This document shows, piece by piece, positions 4,495-62,915 of a stretch of 64,000 bases of DNA. Origin of the DNA: a virus; IMG/VR virus record IMGVR_UViG_3300032883_000188, positions 1 through 64,000 of that record; one strand, given 5' to 3'. Position 1 is the stretch's first letter, and each line of letters starts with the position of its first letter. A program made the position numbers and the translations under genes. The notes below the pieces were generated by a model. It saw only the letters and a list, made by a program, of their open reading frames with translations, searched no databases and was not told the DNA's origin.

Positions 4495-4707
4495 ATGGAT
4501 GAAAAATTTAAACGCGTAAATTTAGACAAAGTTCTTCGCGCAGATGCCGATGGTATGCCAGTATTCAGAAATTGCTTTGAACATGAAATACTCATGAATT
4601 TTTATGATGATGACGGCGCATATGAATTTGAAGATTGGTGGAATCTGGAAGGAAGCGCGTTATTTTATAAATATTTGGAAAATGCGAATCACTGGCTTGT
4701 TGGATAA
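4495..4707 (+). CDS. Hypothetical acidic protein, 70 aa
   Basis: MDEKF start and 5' leader resemble those of the 4196 gene, but the bodies differ. Acidic/aromatic centre (FYDDDGAYEFEDWW). Called on its ribosome site and tiling with neighbours; no family recognised. Confidence 0.6.
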   Translation: MDEKFKRVNLDKVLRADADGMPVFRNCFEHEILMNFYDDDGAYEFEDWWNLEGSALFYKYLENANHWLVG

Positions 4708-4726
4708 AAAAACAAGGAGAAATAAA

Positions 4727-4951
4727 ATGGATTACGATTTAAATGTACGCTTTACATATCACAAACCTTTTGGAAATCAGCCTGCCCGATATGAAGAAAT
4801 TCGTGCAAGAGCATTAGATTTCGCTGATTATCTTATAAAGCATTGCCCCGATAGCAGGGAATTTTCTTTGGCTCTTACTAAATTAGAAGAGGTTGTCTTT
4901 TGGGCAAATGCGGAAATTGCTAGACACGAAGAAAATACAAGCGAGGAATAA
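4727..4951 (+). CDS. acb2: Acb2/Tad1-type cyclic nucleotide sponge (anti-CBASS/anti-Thoeris)
   Basis: The 74-residue protein matches the Acb2 family pattern: FTYHKPFGNQPARYEEIR, then CPDSREFSLALTKLEE and WANAEIARHE. It is a compact helical hairpin. Known Acb2 proteins form hexamers that bind the cyclic di- and trinucleotides made by CBASS (and some Thoeris signals), blocking effector activation. ATG 4727 is chosen because AAGGAG lies 9 bases upstream; an upstream in-frame ATG at 4604 lies within the previous gene. An early position fits an anti-defence role. The ligand range of this copy is inferred. Confidence 0.85.
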   Translation: MDYDLNVRFTYHKPFGNQPARYEEIRARALDFADYLIKHCPDSREFSLALTKLEEVVFWANAEIARHEENTSEE

Positions 4952-5601: not shown

Positions 5602-5919
5602 ATGACATACACTAAAAAGATGCATGATGCGGCAAGGCGTGAAACGATAGGAAAACATAATATTGTAACCGACTTGCTGGACGAAATTGAACGTTTACAA
5701 AACAAAAAACACGGGTATGTGCACCAAACCGATGACGGCGATTGGTATCTTGTGCCAGAAGATGAAACTGAATTATTTTTAACCTGTATTGATAGATTTC
5801 AAAGTGGTTGGAGCGCCGATGAGTTAAGAGATTGGCTTAACCTTTTTGATACAAAATTCAAAAAGTATCGTCTTTCTGGCGGTGTTGAATCTTTGAGCAT
5901 TCCAATGGAGCTAGAATGA
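5602..5919 (+). CDS. Hypothetical protein, 105 aa
   Basis: ATG 5602 is preferred to the upstream TTG at 5584 because GAGG lies 5 bases before it. Helical N-terminal part (DLLDEIERLQNKK), then a Trp-rich region. The stop overlaps the next ATG. No family recognised. Confidence 0.6.
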   Translation: MTYTKKMHDAARRETIGKHNIVTDLLDEIERLQNKKHGYVHQTDDGDWYLVPEDETELFLTCIDRFQSGWSADELRDWLNLFDTKFKKYRLSGGVESLSIPMELE

Positions 5920-6158
5920 GTTGGGTCAGACCTGAAATGATTAAAGCATGGGAAGCGGAGTGGAAAGATATGCCCGAGTACATACAAGAAGACCTTGAAC
6001 CTGTAAAGGACATCATGGTGCACTTCGAAACAATTGAAGACATGGAAGCCTTTGCCGAGTTGGTGGGACAGGAAATCACGCTTAAGACAAAGGGTATATG
6101 GTATCCAGCCCACGAACGAAGAAGCAGAATAAACAAGGTATACATAGATGAATCCTAA
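5916..6158 (+). CDS. Conserved phage protein, 80 aa, upstream of glycosyltransferase
   Basis: A compact alpha/beta protein whose core reads IMVHFETIEDMEAFAELVGQ followed by TKGIWYP. I recall similar proteins next to phage DNA-modification genes, but their function is unknown. It overlaps the glycosyltransferase gene by 11 bases, so a joint role is likely. Confidence 0.65.
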   Translation: MSWVRPEMIKAWEAEWKDMPEYIQEDLEPVKDIMVHFETIEDMEAFAELVGQEITLKTKGIWYPAHERRSRINKVYIDES

Positions 6159-6978
6159 CTATCCCGTATATATTATATCCAAGGGCAGGTGGGAAAAGCG
6201 TCTCACTGCTAACTCCTTTGAGAAGATGGGTGTACCTTATCATATTGTGGTCGAGCCACAGGAATATGATAACTACGCGCAATACATTGACCCCGAAAAA
6301 ATATTTGTCCTGCCGTTCAGTAATTTGGGGCAAGGGTCAATACCAGCACGCAATTGGGTGTGGGAACATTCTATTGATACCGGGGCAAAGCGCCACTGGA
6401 TACTGGACGATAATATTGCAGGTTTCATCCGGCTTAATCGCAACGAAAGAATACCCGTTGCCTCCGGTACAATCTTCAAAGCCGCCGAGGATTTTGTTGA
6501 CAGATATACTAACATAGCCCTCGCTGGCTTCGGCTATCGCTTCATGGCAGGTGGACACAGGCGCAAGAAACCACCCTTCCGTCTTAATACCGGGGTATAT
6601 TCCTGCATCCTGATTAAAAATGATATTCCGTTCAGGTGGCGTGGACGCTACAATGAGGATTCAGATTTATCAATCAGAGTGTTAAAAGCTGGCTGGTGCA
6701 CATTGATATTCAATGCTTTCATGCAGAATAAAATGGCAACCATGTCTATGAAAGGCGGTAACACGGATGAGTTGTATGCGGGTGATGGACGCTTGAAGAT
6801 GGCACAATCCTTGCAAGAACAGCACCCGGATATTGTCACTGTACAGCGTAGGTTTAATCGCTGGCAACACGTAACTGATTATCGACCTTTTAAAAGAAAC
6901 ACGCTTATAAAAAAGGAAAACATATACATCCCTGACCGAGTAAATAATTACGGGATGATATTAGTTGACAAAAATTAA
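6148..6978 (+). CDS. TET-associated-type glycosyltransferase (TAGT-like)
   Basis: GT-A-fold enzyme of 276 residues. The N-terminus has PVYIISKGRW, then VVEPQEYDNY (residues 35-43), IPARNWVWEH, and WILDDNI with the DDN metal/nucleotide-sugar motif at 87-89. E170/D171 lie in GRYNEDSDLS, the usual acidic second motif. This set is typical of the phage TAGT family predicted to glycosylate modified pyrimidines in phage DNA. No TET/JBP oxygenase or base-modifying enzyme is visible here, so one may lie outside the window, or the substrate may differ. Promoter 6965-6993 begins inside its 3' end. Confidence 0.75.
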   Translation: MNPNYPVYIISKGRWEKRLTANSFEKMGVPYHIVVEPQEYDNYAQYIDPEKIFVLPFSNLGQGSIPARNWVWEHSIDTGAKRHWILDDNIAGFIRLNRNERIPVASGTIFKAAEDFVDRYTNIALAGFGYRFMAGGHRRKKPPFRLNTGVYSCILIKNDIPFRWRGRYNEDSDLSIRVLKAGWCTLIFNAFMQNKMATMSMKGGNTDELYAGDGRLKMAQSLQEQHPDIVTVQRRFNRWQHVTDYRPFKRNTLIKKENIYIPDRVNNYGMILVDKN

Positions 6979-16728: not shown

Positions 16729-17118
16729 ATGATTCTATTCATCCTTCAAAACGCATATCGTTCTGAAAAATATAAATTCAAGAACAATGCAGAGTGGTTT
16801 AAAGACCTTGCACGTTCACATACCGGGCGCAGGTTAATGGAAATGATACCCGATGGTGCTGAGGCATATGTAATCAATTCTACACCGCTTATTGGAGATG
16901 ATGCCAAGAGTTGTTTTAAGTCCGACACTGGTTATATGAAGCTTATGATAGAACAGTATAACCCGATGGTTATTTGTGCCTGTGGAAAAATTGCGCAAGA
17001 AGGTTGTGAGAAACTAGGCGTAACACATATTAAAGCCCCACATCCTGCATGGCGCAGACTTTCTAAAGAAATTACGAGCGATATTAGGAGGCAGATTTAT
17101 GAGCAGACACGAAGTTAA
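16729..17118 (+). CDS. Uracil-DNA-glycosylase-like protein
   Basis: 129 residues with a Rossmann-like layout seen in the UDG superfamily: a first strand ending LFILQNAY, YVINSTPLIGDD, then VICACGKIAQEG and a KAPHPAWRR segment comparable to the HPS(P) motif. It is shorter than bacterial UDGs and the catalytic Asp/Asn of motif 1 is not evident, so activity is uncertain. A role in removing damaged bases or in handling modified phage DNA is possible. Confidence 0.5.
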   Translation: MILFILQNAYRSEKYKFKNNAEWFKDLARSHTGRRLMEMIPDGAEAYVINSTPLIGDDAKSCFKSDTGYMKLMIEQYNPMVICACGKIAQEGCEKLGVTHIKAPHPAWRRLSKEITSDIRRQIYEQTRS

Positions 17119-18137: not shown

Positions 18138-18678
18138 TACTGTGATTGCCTGTGATGTAGACGGGGTAATAGCCGATGTACTTACCAATTGGCTGGCTCG
18201 CTATAACCGAGACTATAACGATAATTTGAAACACGATGATATCACCGCATGGGATACATCTATTTTTGTGAAAGCCGAATGTGGTAAAAAGATATTTGCT
18301 TATCTTGACGACCCTAGCCTTTATGATGATGTTTTGCCTTACCCCGGGGCGCTGGATGCCGTTAAGGAATTAAAGAAACTCGGAAGGGTTGTTTATGCTA
18401 CATCATCCCCCGCTAAATCTTATGGCAGAAAATTCTTCTGGTTAAAAGAGCATGGCTTTTTAAGTGACCAGTTGGATTACTTCGAAACACGAGATAAAAG
18501 TTTGGTAAGGGCAGATTTCCTGATAGATGATTATTACAAGAATTTGGATACCTTTGTAGGCAAGAAAATTTTGCTTGCGCAACCATGGAACTACAGTCTT
18601 GAAAAAGACCCCGACTATGTCTATGGTACTTCTTGGAAAAAGATAATAGGATATATAAAAAATGACCTCGGACTATGA
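18127..18678 (+). CDS. HAD-family 5'(3')-deoxyribonucleotidase
   Basis: 183 residues. HAD motif I DVDGVIAD (nucleophile D10, acid D12), motif II YATSSPAKSYG, and motif III-IV region ADFLIDDYYKN fit the cytosolic deoxyribonucleotidase (NT5C) branch. It removes phosphate from dNMPs, trimming nucleotide pools together with the adjacent GMP reductase-like enzyme and ribonucleotide reductase. Overlaps its neighbours on both sides. Confidence 0.85.
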   Translation: MIPNTVIACDVDGVIADVLTNWLARYNRDYNDNLKHDDITAWDTSIFVKAECGKKIFAYLDDPSLYDDVLPYPGALDAVKELKKLGRVVYATSSPAKSYGRKFFWLKEHGFLSDQLDYFETRDKSLVRADFLIDDYYKNLDTFVGKKILLAQPWNYSLEKDPDYVYGTSWKKIIGYIKNDLGL

Positions 18679-19603
18679 CCACATTCATTTGATACCTAAA
18701 GAAAGAAGTCAACTAGCCCACAGGGGAGATGTGGATTTAAGAAGTTCTCTTTATGGACTTTACCCAATCATCTCTTCCCCAATGAGGGGCATAAGTGGGG
18801 CTAGGCTGGTTATTGAAATGGGGAAAAATAATTGCTTGGGAATCTTGCATCGTTTTGGCAGTTTCAATGAGAGATTTGATTCTATTGTTAAAGTAATCGA
18901 GGCAAAAGTTCCCTTCGGACTTGCCATTGGTTTTGGAAAAGATAAGAACGAATTTATAAATTCAGAAATGAAACTAGCTAAGATGGCTGTTGATGCCGGA
19001 GCAATTATGCTTTGCGTGGATGTTGCTAATGGATATCTGCCACAGCACAAAGAACGCGGAGAATTATTAAGAACACTATTTCCAAGTATACACCTTATGA
19101 GCGGAAACGTTGTAACCCAAGAAGGGGCATACTATTTATTAAATTCTGGTTTTGATTATGTTCGTGTTGGAATTGGGCATGGTGCTAACTGTACCACCAG
19201 AAAAGCAACCGGAATAGGCAGAAATCAACTGGCGGCGCTCAAAGATTGCTCTGCTGTTGACGCACATTTGGTCATAGATGGGGGCATTGATGAAGCAGGT
19301 AAAGCGGTAAAGGCTTTTGCATTCGGGGCTGAGTTTGTAATGGTTGGAAGACTGCTTGCTGAAAGTCTTGAAGCCGAACATGAAGGCATACTGTACGGCA
19401 TGGCTTCTGTTCATAATATGATAGTAAACGGCATGGAAATTAAATCTGTTGAGGGCAAGGAAACAAAGGTTGAAAAAATAAAACCCCTCAAGGACATATT
19501 AACAGAATTTTTGTGGAACATAAGAAGTGCGTGCACATATTTAAACGCAAAACATTATACCCAAATAGGGGTTAAAGCACATGTTGTGGAGGTGAACGAG
19601 TGA
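18662..19603 (+). CDS. GMP reductase-like enzyme (IMPDH/GMPR family)
   Basis: 313-residue TIM barrel without CBS domains. The catalytic Cys is C177 in GANCTTRKATGIG, where CTTRxxTGxG is the GMP reductase form rather than the IMP dehydrogenase form. DGGI, GAEFVMVG and the ILYGMAS flap follow, and the C-terminus has IRSACTYL as in GuaC. Known GMPRs convert GMP to IMP with NADPH, linking guanine to adenine nucleotides. In this phage it sits with deoxynucleotidase, class II RNR and MazG, consistent with purine-pool control. Confidence 0.8.
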   Translation: MTSDYDHIHLIPKERSQLAHRGDVDLRSSLYGLYPIISSPMRGISGARLVIEMGKNNCLGILHRFGSFNERFDSIVKVIEAKVPFGLAIGFGKDKNEFINSEMKLAKMAVDAGAIMLCVDVANGYLPQHKERGELLRTLFPSIHLMSGNVVTQEGAYYLLNSGFDYVRVGIGHGANCTTRKATGIGRNQLAALKDCSAVDAHLVIDGGIDEAGKAVKAFAFGAEFVMVGRLLAESLEAEHEGILYGMASVHNMIVNGMEIKSVEGKETKVEKIKPLKDILTEFLWNIRSACTYLNAKHYTQIGVKAHVVEVNE

Positions 19604-21482: not shown

Positions 21483-21841
21483 TGGATATATATGAATATA
21501 TGAAGGAAGTGGAAAGAACCTGCCCCCGATTAAAAGGGGAGTTCTATGATGAACTCCATATGGCAATTGGTGCGGCTACAGAAGCAGGAGAACTTTTGGA
21601 TGCATATAAAAAAGACTTTGCTTATGGTAAACCGATTGATAAAATAAACGTTGCAGAAGAGATAGGCGACCAATTATGGTATCTTGTGAATCTAATGCGC
21701 ATGTTGGATTTAGACCCTGCCGATGTGTTTGAAATAAACCTAAATAAACTTCGTGCAAGATATCCAGAAAAATTTACAGAATATAATGCATTAAACAGAG
21801 ATTTAAAAAAAGAAAGAGAGATATTGGAAAATGGCGGATAG
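21482..21841 (+). CDS. MazG-like nucleotide pyrophosphohydrolase
   Basis: 119 residues with the all-alpha MazG signature: ATEAGELLDAY (ExxE) and AEEIGDQLWYLV (ExxD) about 30 residues apart, which bind the metals. It hydrolyses (d)NTPs to (d)NMPs and pyrophosphate. Its ATG overlaps the nrdJ stop by one base. With the deoxynucleotidase this can limit particular deoxynucleotides; alternatively it may lower host alarmones, as proposed for cyanophage MazG. Confidence 0.85.
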   Translation: MDIYEYMKEVERTCPRLKGEFYDELHMAIGAATEAGELLDAYKKDFAYGKPIDKINVAEEIGDQLWYLVNLMRMLDLDPADVFEINLNKLRARYPEKFTEYNALNRDLKKEREILENGG

Positions 21842-22121
21842 TATTGGCGTTGGTTTTGGTCTAGCCTTGGCTATGCTCAAAGAGGGAAGGCGAGTATATC
21901 GCATGGGTTGGAATGGCAAAGGCATGTGGCTGGTGATTGCTTACCAGACAGCAAATGAATTCAAAAAAGAAAAACCTATTAAATTCAATAAACAATATGA
22001 AGATATGGATGTGCTATATCTTGAAAACTTTATTGCTATGAAAACAGTGGATGGTAAACTTGTGCCATGGTTGGCTTCTCAAACCGATATACTCGCAGAA
22101 GATTGGTGTATGATAGATTAA
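21831..22121 (+). CDS. tad2: Tad2-family anti-Thoeris protein (DUF2829)
   Basis: 96 residues. GFGLALAMLKEGRRVYRMGWNG and FIAMKTVDGKLVPWLASQTDILAEDW match the Tad2 (DUF2829) family throughout. Known Tad2 proteins are tetramers that sequester the cyclic-ADP-ribose-type signals of Thoeris. It overlaps mazG by 11 bases and ends the + strand block. With the Acb2-like gene at 4727 the phage carries two sponges from unrelated families. Confidence 0.85.
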   Translation: MADSIGVGFGLALAMLKEGRRVYRMGWNGKGMWLVIAYQTANEFKKEKPIKFNKQYEDMDVLYLENFIAMKTVDGKLVPWLASQTDILAEDWCMID

Positions 22122-57582: not shown

Positions 57583-59142
57583 TTATATCGTAACAGCGCT
57601 GTACTCTTCGGAGTTCAATACTTCTAGCATTGCGTCATAGGCAGTTACACCTACGGCGTTTAAAATGCCCTTAAATACACTTGGAGACTGTCCGCTTGCA
57701 AGCTGGATACCGTGCTCATCCTTGGTGGCGTGAAACACGTTGCCGTTGCGGGAGTCAACATTCCAATAAACCATGTCTGGTAGTTCGTAACCAGCATGTG
57801 CGAATCTGGTCTTTAGCTCGGTAGTGAAGTCAACCTTGCGGCTGGTGCTACGACTATTACGGCTCATGAAACTATAACCGTTTTGAACACTATCGATTTC
57901 CATATCGGAGATAACCACAATCTTTGCTGGCATGTCTTCCTGAGAAACCTTGTTCTTTACAGCAACATCCAGAAGCAGTTCGAAAACAGCTTCCAAGTTG
58001 GTGTTGGAGTCGTCATGGTCAACGCAAGCAACCTTGTCCTTAAGAGTTGCACCCTTAAGCGTAATGAAATGAGGTGTGCTTGAGAAGGTCATGAACTGGT
58101 TGTGGAACTGCCCCTTATTGTGCTCGGCAAAGTAAATACCAAGACCAATGGAGGTGCAAACAGGACGACCCTGCATAGAACCGGAAGTGTCCGCAACAAT
58201 CAAGACATTCTCCCCGTTTTCCACATAATTAGGAAGAGCATTCCACTGTGCTTCAAGAGTCTCATCCCAAGAGGCAAGACCGTATACATCATGACGACCA
58301 CTATAATAACCGCGTCTTCCATCCGTATAGTAACCTGCGCTCAAACCAGCCTTTTCCAAGATATCGTAAGGGTAAAGAGTTGCAGAGTGAATAACTGCAT
58401 CACCCTTCTTGACAGCCTCAAGATACTTGACAAAACGCTCACCATCGTGCTTTGAGAACGCCTTACGGCTGTTCGTCATAGCCTTACTGCAAACCTTCTC
58501 GAAATCAATTTCATTCCAGTTGTTTGCAGACATTTTCTTTTCAACAACCGCATTACCCAACGCACCACGAATGTTGGAAAGGATTCTGCGGTAATCGCGC
58601 TCGGAGAAACCCAACTTGTTGGCGGTATAACGTCCCAAAGCGCGGGTCTTCAAAGAAGATGAGTTAACGGACTTGAGCCACTTTGCAAGCAAAGAAGGAC
58701 TCTTGCCCTTGGTACGGATTGTCTTAATATCCTCTACCAATTGGGTGCTAATAAAGCCCCACATCTCATTTTCTATTGGAGTATCAATGAACATATACAG
58801 GTCGTCCCAACGTCCAAAGACAGGAACAAGGTGCATGTTCTTTTTCATGATTTCTGGTACGTTAATAGCCAACCAGCGCCACATGAAACGGCTGACAGTA
58901 CGCTCACCCAAGCCACCGCGAATGTTACGTGCATAGAAACTTAACTTGGTAGCAAGCAAGCGGTCTTCCGCAAAAGCGGATGCGAACATGTCGATTACAT
59001 CGCCCGGGCGGGTGCGCAATGCACCAACCGTGCCATATAAATCGAGTAAAGAACTTCCAGTGCTGGAACGAGCAATCTGTCCGTTCTCCGTGAAAGTCCA
59101 GTTGAATTCCTCACCCAATAGAGTTGCGAAATTCTTGTTCAT
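57583..59142 (-). CDS. DUF2828/Ro60-like protein with vWA domain
   Basis: 519 residues. Residues 30-290 are a helical-repeat region with KLSFYARNIRGGLGERT and VFGRWDDLY (110-116), as in DUF2828, which has a TROVE-like ring architecture. Residues 310-519 are a vWA domain with a full MIDAS: DTSGSM (318-323), T381 and D413. TROVE-vWA proteins (Ro60, Rsr) bind Y RNAs and misfolded RNA. Eight structured RNA elements lie upstream, six of them apparently forming its own leader from promoter 59664-59692. Similarity to DUF2828 is seen; RNA binding is inference. Confidence 0.75.
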   Translation of the reverse strand: MNKNFATLLGEEFNWTFTENGQIARSSTGSSLLDLYGTVGALRTRPGDVIDMFASAFAEDRLLATKLSFYARNIRGGLGERTVSRFMWRWLAINVPEIMKKNMHLVPVFGRWDDLYMFIDTPIENEMWGFISTQLVEDIKTIRTKGKSPSLLAKWLKSVNSSSLKTRALGRYTANKLGFSERDYRRILSNIRGALGNAVVEKKMSANNWNEIDFEKVCSKAMTNSRKAFSKHDGERFVKYLEAVKKGDAVIHSATLYPYDILEKAGLSAGYYTDGRRGYYSGRHDVYGLASWDETLEAQWNALPNYVENGENVLIVADTSGSMQGRPVCTSIGLGIYFAEHNKGQFHNQFMTFSSTPHFITLKGATLKDKVACVDHDDSNTNLEAVFELLLDVAVKNKVSQEDMPAKIVVISDMEIDSVQNGYSFMSRNSRSTSRKVDFTTELKTRFAHAGYELPDMVYWNVDSRNGNVFHATKDEHGIQLASGQSPSVFKGILNAVGVTAYDAMLEVLNSEEYSAVTI

Positions 59143-60027: not shown

Positions 60028-60606
60028 TTAAGCACATTTTAATGTGCCATATGCCTTTTGCCTATATGCTATAATATTATCATCCCTTATAACATAAGAA
60101 AAATCGCTTTTTGAAAGTCTTTGCATTTCCCTATTTATTTCAGAAGGATTGCAATTGCGCCATTCAAAAGTAATACTATCTATTGCGTCTACATCGAACT
60201 GCTTCAATATCTCGCAATCATGACCTTCGGCATCTATTTTCAAATAATCAATCTTTTCAACTTTATGTTTTTCAAGAAGGTCTGCAACTGTTATCATTGG
60301 TAGTACTATTTCACTCAAAATGTTTCTTGCATTATCAGTATGGTATTTATGTAAAGAGCCTACACCTCTCATCCAATCTCCCAAATTCATCCTCTTTATG
60401 GTTTCTTGGGTGACATAGTAAAAAGGAAAATTTCCTCTTTCAGTTCCGATAATTGAATTTTCGTAGGATACACCTTCTACACGCTCAATCAGATTAAAAT
60501 ACTCGGGCACTGGTTCTACAACCAAGCCATTCCAGCCCTCATCACGAGCCAGATAAACAAGATTTGAAAAGTAGTTTGCACCAATTTCTACAAAGAATTT
60601 TTTCAT
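60028..60606 (-). CDS. FkbM-family methyltransferase
   Basis: 192 residues. VEIGANYFSNLVYLARDEGW (SAM-binding motif I with ExGANxG-like), VVEPVPEYF, and YLKIDAEGHDCEIL near residue 118-131 are the FkbM hallmarks. Methylates O atoms, usually of sugars. It lies inside the tRNA cluster and may modify surface glycans, or a phage sugar from the nearby glycosyltransferases. Confidence 0.85.
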   Translation of the reverse strand: MKKFFVEIGANYFSNLVYLARDEGWNGLVVEPVPEYFNLIERVEGVSYENSIIGTERGNFPFYYVTQETIKRMNLGDWMRGVGSLHKYHTDNARNILSEIVLPMITVADLLEKHKVEKIDYLKIDAEGHDCEILKQFDVDAIDSITFEWRNCNPSEINREMQRLSKSDFSYVIRDDNIIAYRQKAYGTLKCA

Positions 60607-61791: not shown

Positions 61792-62889
61792 TTATATCTT
61801 TTTGAACCATATAGTTCCAAAAACACCATCCGGTTTTCCAAATTTGTCTGTCACCGCTCTTACAACCTCGGGGAAATTATTTGGGTCATAATCATGCCCA
61901 CATATTAATTTTTTTGCTTTAGGATACCAGTTATTGATGTCTGATAATGTTTCTAGATATGTATGCCCCGCATCAATAAAAACCATGTCCACTGATTTAG
62001 TAGTAAATCTCTGTGATGCTTCATTGGTAGTCATTTTTAAAACATTTATATTTTTAAATTCTTTTGTATTTTTCAAGAACTCGGAATAAATATCCTCGCT
62101 TTCGGAAAGTTCTTTTGTTCTATCTCCAATACTTCCAAGCCAGTGGTCTACACACCACACCGTTCCTTTGCAACCGCTGGCTAAAGCGTGTGTACTTCTA
62201 CCTTTCCAAGAACCTAGTTCTACTATACTGTCCATTTGTTTTGCTTGATTATATAAAAACTCCATTTCACTTGGAAACATCCAGCCTTCGATTTCCGGTA
62301 CAACATACTCTGAAACAGCGTAATTATCCACTCCTAATTTTATTTTACCAACATGATGTACGTTCTGGCTTAAATCATGGTCAATCCATATTTTATAACC
62401 ATATTTTCTGGCTAACTCACAAAAATAAATGTCTTCTCCCAAATAATAAGTACCCATCCAAGGCATGTTGAAACGAGGAAGGGGCAGTTTTTTAAGCACA
62501 TCCGTCTTTATTAAAACAAGCCCCATCCCAATCGAATCAACTTCTTGTATACCTGTTTTACCTACTGAACTCACTCCTTGATGGTTTATCATGGCTGTCC
62601 ATTTCTCTTGCTCAACTCTTTGTATATAATTTGCACCAATAATATCTTTATCGCGAGAACGTAACCTTTCAATCGAATCTTTTGGAAACATCATATCGGA
62701 ATCAATAAAAGATAAATGGGTTGCACCTATTTTGGAAACCGCATCCGCCGCGCCTTCTCTTAGTGTTTGTATATAAGAGCCAACAACGGCGGCGAAAGAA
62801 TATTCTGGATTTGTACGAAGCAATTCGACCAAATCACAATGAGTATTTACGTCTATCACATCTCTGGTGAGCGTGCATACGTATATCAT
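61792..62889 (-). CDS. Glycosyltransferase-methyltransferase fusion
   Basis: 365 residues. ATG 62889 is chosen because GGAGA is 10 bases upstream; a GTG three codons earlier lies too close to it. Residues 1-190 form a GT-A glycosyltransferase (FIDSDMMFP with a DxD-type motif, GIGMGLVLIK, YLGEDIYFCELARKYGYKIWIDHD). Residues 215-365 form a class I SAM methyltransferase (IVELGSWKGRSTHAL, VDHWLGS, VDMVFIDAGHTYL), Methyltransf_24-like. It may build and methylate a sugar on virion or host structures. Confidence 0.8.
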   Translation of the reverse strand: MIYVCTLTRDVIDVNTHCDLVELLRTNPEYSFAAVVGSYIQTLREGAADAVSKIGATHLSFIDSDMMFPKDSIERLRSRDKDIIGANYIQRVEQEKWTAMINHQGVSSVGKTGIQEVDSIGMGLVLIKTDVLKKLPLPRFNMPWMGTYYLGEDIYFCELARKYGYKIWIDHDLSQNVHHVGKIKLGVDNYAVSEYVVPEIEGWMFPSEMEFLYNQAKQMDSIVELGSWKGRSTHALASGCKGTVWCVDHWLGSIGDRTKELSESEDIYSEFLKNTKEFKNINVLKMTTNEASQRFTTKSVDMVFIDAGHTYLETLSDINNWYPKAKKLICGHDYDPNNFPEVVRAVTDKFGKPDGVFGTIWFKKI

Positions 62890-62915
62890 TTTTATCACAA
62901 TCTCCTGATAATTTT

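Follow-up and report, generated by a model that had tools for sequence, protein, structure and literature searches.

A small partner protein coupled to a TAGT-family glycosyltransferase in phages: a putative two-part enzyme for DNA glycosylation

The stretch of DNA analysed here, referred to below as the window, comprises bases 1-64000 of the 81,806-base IMG/VR virus record IMGVR_UViG_3300032883_000188. On its plus strand lie two short, overlapping genes, of which the upstream one (5916-6158, +) encodes a small partner protein of 80 amino acids, with the consensus EWxGMPEFxQ ... VHF ... TxKTKSIWxP ... RYxDE, and the downstream one (6148-6978, +) a TAGT glycosyltransferase of 276 amino acids. 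The two frames share 11 bases (6148-6158, +), in which the small protein ends with ...DES-stop and the TAGT begins with MNP..., exactly the overlap described in an earlier note on this DNA. The assignment of the glycosyltransferase to the TAGT family, also made in that note, is borne out by a match to Pfam PF20691 that covers the full profile (165 bits against a cut-off of 27.5, E 2.2e-48), by a match to phrog_842 (E 6e-46) and by the presence of all four of the named motifs, ISKGRW, VEPQEY, WILDDN and NEDSD. In an alignment of 75 relatives, S11-K12, D87-D88, E170-D171 and G203-G204-N205 are invariant. These positions include the DxD-like donor or metal-site motif DDN (residues 87-89; 6406-6414, +), found as DDN in 74 of the 75 sequences, the catalytic-type motif ED (residues 170-171; 6655-6660, +) and the GGN motif (residues 203-205; 6754-6762, +), the latter two being identical in all 75, while NED-T/S-D is found in 70. 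To judge from this alignment, such conservation is far from chance.

The AF2 model of the TAGT is of high confidence (pLDDT 91.3, pTM 0.90) and takes a GT-A fold, the nearest folds in the PDB being mostly GT-A glycosyltransferases. The best of these is the hydroxylysine galactosyltransferase COLGALT1 (E 2.3e-6, TM 0.43 by query), a likeness that, from the model, appears to be one of fold level only. In the window TAGT the DxD-like motif (DDN) ends in N instead of D. No Pfam or NCBIfam family covers the small protein, which matches phrog_22103 very weakly and is nonetheless conserved, as had been supposed: W16, M19 and P20 are invariant in 74 aligned sequences. Its model is mediocre (pLDDT 80.6, pTM 0.51), with no fold match in the PDB and with matches in BFVD only to uncharacterised or unnamed viral proteins. 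Sequence searches of the PDB with both proteins gave no credible relative.

The coupling of the two proteins, likewise put forward in the earlier note, was followed from both sides. Scanning viral contigs with the window TAGT gave 549 stretches encoding relatives, and in the best 80 of these 549 a profile of the small protein located the small domain together with the TAGT in 78 loci. In the two remaining loci, no more than about 120 bases separate the TAGT start from the contig end. Conversely, viral contigs were scanned with single small proteins as queries: all 23 loci found with the small protein of the window contain a TAGT, as do 75 of the 79 found with that of a relative, a set that shares a few contigs with the earlier ones, and in the four loci without a TAGT the contig runs on for no more than 1.3 kb downstream of the small gene. 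One tally linked the small protein to a TAGT in 102 of 104 loci, and of about 200 loci, seeded from either side, nearly all have it next to, or in one chain with, a TAGT of this subfamily. Furthermore, where the two genes are split, the exact 11-nt overlap of small stop and TAGT start is found in 57 of 78 loci, as in the window. These counts, together with the conserved overlap, indicate that the pair is a conserved unit and not a chance neighbourhood. From sequence comparison, small-TAGT is a distinct and widespread two-part subfamily of TAGT, and the small protein a domain without prior annotation that is a near-obligate partner of the TAGT.

The two parts are also joined covalently, in several arrangements. 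A number of environmental contigs (L018, L020, L032, L041, L065, L098-L104 and L125) encode the small domain fused N-terminally to the TAGT, and single-chain small-TAGT proteins are encoded by T4-like Aeromonas phages and by phages of Vibrio, Tenacibaculum and Pectobacterium. The order is TAGT and then small in L085 and L087-L096, and Ah1-like phages and POP12 have a second, free small protein downstream of the fused gene. Fusions to DNA enzymes include a 1064-aa frame with TAGT, UDG, 3'-5' exonuclease and DNA polymerase A (L005), an ORF with small, TAGT, exonuclease and polymerase A (L041) and a fusion of small, TAGT and a UDG-like domain (L018). The TAGT-polymerase A fusions thus amount to two cases, each architecture being seen once, and L061 has a UDG-PolA fusion without TAGT in the same ORF.

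In addition, an N-terminal ParB-like domain is present on the small domain in 29 loci. In L021/L269, where ParB-small is followed by TAGT, the ParB part is 84% identical over 145 aa to that of a protein in L270 that continues into an N6_N4 DNA methylase. One ParB part also matches a methylase model, and in named phages a similar ParB domain belongs to, or adjoins, proteins annotated as DNA or adenine methylases. The simplest reading of these sequences is that ParB-small would be part of a DNA-modification enzyme with an exchanged catalytic part, methylase in the ParB-N6/N4 phage DNA methyltransferases and glycosyltransferase in small-TAGT, although the small protein of the window itself lacks ParB. 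At L304:3686-5018, a divergent TAGT (PF20691 just under the cut-off) overlaps a ParB protein whose C-terminal domain differs, by which the pairing of ParB and TAGT may have arisen more than once. In the L088-L090 group, TAGT-small is followed by another TAGT, a divergent one, and in the L087-L096 clade genes for a UDP-glucose dehydrogenase and an NDP-sugar epimerase lie near TAGT-small. The latter suggest a possible dedicated sugar-donor pathway in L087-L096, and there is a hint that the donor in the L088-L090 clade may be other than plain UDP-glucose.

In the window, the pair precedes, on the same strand, genes for an AAA ATPase, SSB, a primase-helicase, a PD-(D/E)XK nuclease and a family-B-like polymerase, and in many relatives the module is found just upstream of the terminase genes. 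A UDG-superfamily-like protein (16729-17118, +), which the earlier note had tentatively tied to base modification, matches PF03167 below the cut-off (21.1 bits against 24.3, E 3.6e-4) and is a weakly supported possible companion. UDG-family matches occur in just 7 of 45 TAGT records, two of the seven having been selected for having UDG, and UDG was accordingly demoted as a general companion of TAGT; what stands of the proposed tie is the triple fusion in L018. Four of the UDG matches sit in long ORFs (813-1201 aa), two of these four being shown to be DNA polymerase A.

Several other genes of this genome deserve mention. An ORF resembling the Acb2/Tad1 hairpin (4604-4951, +, with the likely start inside; PF24729, E 4.1e-16), assigned by eye, probably lies about 1 kb upstream of the pair, and a Tad2-like (Thoeris anti-defence 2-like) protein is encoded at 21831-22121 (+; PF11195, best E 1.6e-22), the ORF being assigned by reading the sequence. 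An IMPDH/GMP reductase-like gene (18662-19603, +), far below the equivalog cut-offs and unusual as a purine gene in a phage, adjoins genes for a 5' deoxynucleotidase (NT5C) and a ribonucleotide reductase. At 57583-59142 (-) lies the probable carrier of a DUF2828/DUF7788 match (E about 1e-35), TROVE/vWA-like by eye. The tail region encodes methyltransferase-domain proteins (61792-62898 and 60028-60606, both -) and glycosyltransferase domains (L001:4942-7725, -), and in the same cluster L001:7716-8999 (-) gave no family match. Finally, a 914-aa protein with a GGSDFDGD motif (L001:15804-18548, -; record positions 78804-81548) is a candidate single-chain RNA polymerase of the QDE-1/YonO type; it is probably the source of the RdRP match (PF05183, E 1.5e-14) in the Pfam tally of the genome.

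Among known systems, points of reference are the T6/T2 enzyme ggt and a protein of Nonlabens phage P12024L. T6/T2 ggt (beta-glucosyl-HMC-alpha-glucosyltransferase) glucosylates DNA by adding a second glucose onto alpha-glucosyl-hmC (PMC13216743). Like the window TAGT it matches PF20691, the T6 protein marginally (E 1e-8); its DD-x and ED motifs are recognisable by eye, and its gene also lies in the replication region. However, T6 ggt is very distant, the window-family profile failing to detect it at E 1, it lacks the small domain, and its gene adjoins that of the gp42 dCMP hydroxymethylase, near the DNA polymerase gene, whereas phages of the window type gave no match of gp42 or alpha-glucosyltransferase type. 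P12024L gp27 is closer (PF20691 E 4e-21, about 28% identical to the window TAGT, with VEPQEY in common); unlike the window gene, it shares its operon with genes for a Tet_JBP dioxygenase and a DNA methyltransferase, and no small domain was found in the stretch searched. The DxD-like motif reads DDD in both T6 and P12024L, compared to DDN in the window family. Considerably nearer are proteins of the phages Aeh1, Ah1 and 65 and of Vibrio, Tenacibaculum and Pectobacterium phages, in which the TAGT domain is 41-48% identical and the small domain is present too, usually in one polypeptide instead of the two overlapping genes of the window. In a tree, the window-type and isolated-phage proteins group together, apart from T6 and P12024L, the latter two sitting on very long branches whose placement is not firm. 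Six RefSeq records (NC_005260, NC_014636, NC_055733, NC_015251, NC_048827 and NC_049340, Aeh1 among them) label such proteins 'beta-glucosyl-HMC-alpha-glucosyltransferase', and PHROG gives the same T6-type name to the family matched by the window TAGT. No alpha- or beta-glucosyltransferase match was found in the examined members of the RefSeq records so labelled. Because the substrate pathway is apparently missing from these phages, the name of the T6 enzyme is not transferable, and the RefSeq naming is a probable over-annotation.

The earlier note named a family predicted to add sugars to oxidised pyrimidines, and this chemistry found no support. Tet_JBP is found in none of 43 records (the 81.8-kb record itself and 42 relatives, many of which may be fragments), while phage P12024L with its TET-TAGT pair, the positive control, matches. 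Likewise, the thymidylate-synthase fold PF00303, which includes the dCMP and dUMP hydroxymethylases, is absent from all 43, with controls matching in 9 genomes, and the C5-methylase family PF00145 occurs in 2 of the 43 and is absent from the 81.8-kb record. A search for T4-type alpha- and beta-glucosyltransferases (PF11440, PF09198), run without a positive control, gave none in the 43 records. The check proposed at the time, for a TET/JBP-like or pyrimidine-modifying enzyme elsewhere in the genome, returned no partner from these families in the 81.8-kb record. Furthermore, when Pfam families were tallied for whatever else the window genome encodes and for one related genome, no base-oxidising family appeared among those listed, with 19 weaker families of the former and 3 of the latter outside the listing. 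In BLAST-level protein clustering of 18 TAGT genomes plus that of the window, at which very divergent enzymes would escape, only TAGT and small or ParB-small are general and no universal acceptor-making enzyme emerges.

The isolated phages give a similar picture. The sole PF00303 protein in Ah1, 65, Kuja and henriette is annotated as thymidylate synthase; in PTm1 the CDS in the PF00303-matching stretch is annotated as an HNH endonuclease, with a second, weak PF00303 match besides; and POP12 gives PF00303 matches. The phages 1.124.O and 1.076.O of a Vibrio collection, both small, have neither PF00303 nor Tet_JBP. Gene 42 (gp42) and gp56 are reported absent from Aeh1 and 65 (Petrov et al. 2010, PMC2993671), and T4 relatives without this gene network, which by Table 4 of that study would include Aeh1 and 65, are judged there to have probably no major dCMP modification (PMC2993671). 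The literature yielded no direct evidence on the virion DNA of small-TAGT phages and no biochemical data for the small-TAGT subfamily. Since no known acceptor enzyme was found with the pair, three options are left: a novel route to the acceptor, direct glycosylation of the base, or a target other than DNA. Given the fusions, the last of these is in our judgement the least likely.

These options differ in how well they agree with the evidence. A scheme of the established kind, in which 5-hydroxymethyl-cytosine or -uracil arises by an unrecognised route or from genes off the record and TAGT adds the sugar, has precedents in P12024L, where TAGT lies between the TET/JBP gene and the DNA methyltransferase, and in the T6 gene beside gp42; the catalytic motifs are shared, and the records may be incomplete. 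The missing hydroxymethylating families, the thymidylate synthase annotations, the reported absence of gp42 and gp56 and the lack of any further general gene family across the 18 TAGT genomes all count against it, and we regard it as a possibility to be taken seriously without being the expected outcome. Being itself a version of DNA glycosylation, it does not compete with the confidence placed in DNA as target. Somewhat more doubtful, as a specific proposal, is that small-TAGT would glycosylate DNA without prior base hydroxylation or would use an acceptor made by a novel enzyme; for example, the sugar could go directly onto an exocyclic amino group of the kind that the ParB-linked methylases methylate, N6 of adenine or N4 of cytosine.

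A protein target, such as a virion or replication protein, with the small domain as acceptor or protein-recognition part, would make a base-oxidising enzyme dispensable, in line with none having been found. GREB1, a distant relative, has been reported to act as a protein glycosyltransferase, COLGALT1 is among the nearest folds, and the terminase genes follow the module in many loci. Yet the module is found fused to DNA polymerase, UDG-like and ParB domains, and the invariant residues of the small domain, W, M and P, are none of the usual O- or N-glycosylation acceptors, which renders a protein target improbable. Least of all do we expect a glycosyltransferase for cell wall, tail or RNA with no role on DNA: this phage does encode other glycosyltransferase domains in its tail region, but those belong to different families, on the other strand and in the late region, while the module lies upstream of replication genes and has relatives fused to DNA enzymes.

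We therefore return to DNA, which the earlier note had already named and which is indicated as likely target by the PolA fusions (two cases), the UDG-like fusions and the ParB domain shared with DNA methylases. Taken as a whole, it is fairly probable that the small protein and TAGT form a two-part glycosyltransferase acting on the phage's own DNA for protection. The comparisons establish family membership, near-obligate coupling, fusions, conserved active-site residues and the GT-A model, and from these we infer the DNA substrate, the role of the small domain and the protective purpose. The two ORFs would work as one functional unit, in which the GT-A chain of TAGT would bind the sugar nucleotide, probably via DDN and ED, and then transfer the sugar. 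The small domain, which occurs free, as an N-terminal fusion to TAGT or with a ParB domain attached, would serve as a dedicated accessory that probably binds or positions the substrate. The unit would most likely glycosylate the phage DNA during or soon after replication. The alpha-glucosyltransferase of T4 has been proposed to work together with the replisome (PMC13216743), and the TAGT-polymerase fusion would, by analogy, be a covalent version of that association. The resulting DNA glycosylation may protect against host nucleases, a role with which the Tad2-like and Acb2/Tad1-like anti-defence genes in the same genome fit.

In a 2026 study, 288 of 753 phage genomes encoded solitary TAGT homologues and no T4-type glucosyltransferase, and the authors proposed that these homologues are novel transferases (PMC13216743). 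Part of this solitary set now gains an anatomy, consisting of a partner domain, fusions that point to DNA and a lack of known hydroxymethylating enzymes. In addition, isolated phages with small-TAGT are identified, namely Ah1, Aeh1, 65, 1.124.O, 1.076.O, henriette, Kuja, PTm1 and POP12. Direct base glycosylation or a novel acceptor enzyme, if true, would add a new way of producing sugar-modified DNA. If the virions carry sugars, hundreds of environmental phages would use a novel route to glycosylated DNA, with consequences, if true, for the evasion of restriction and CRISPR.
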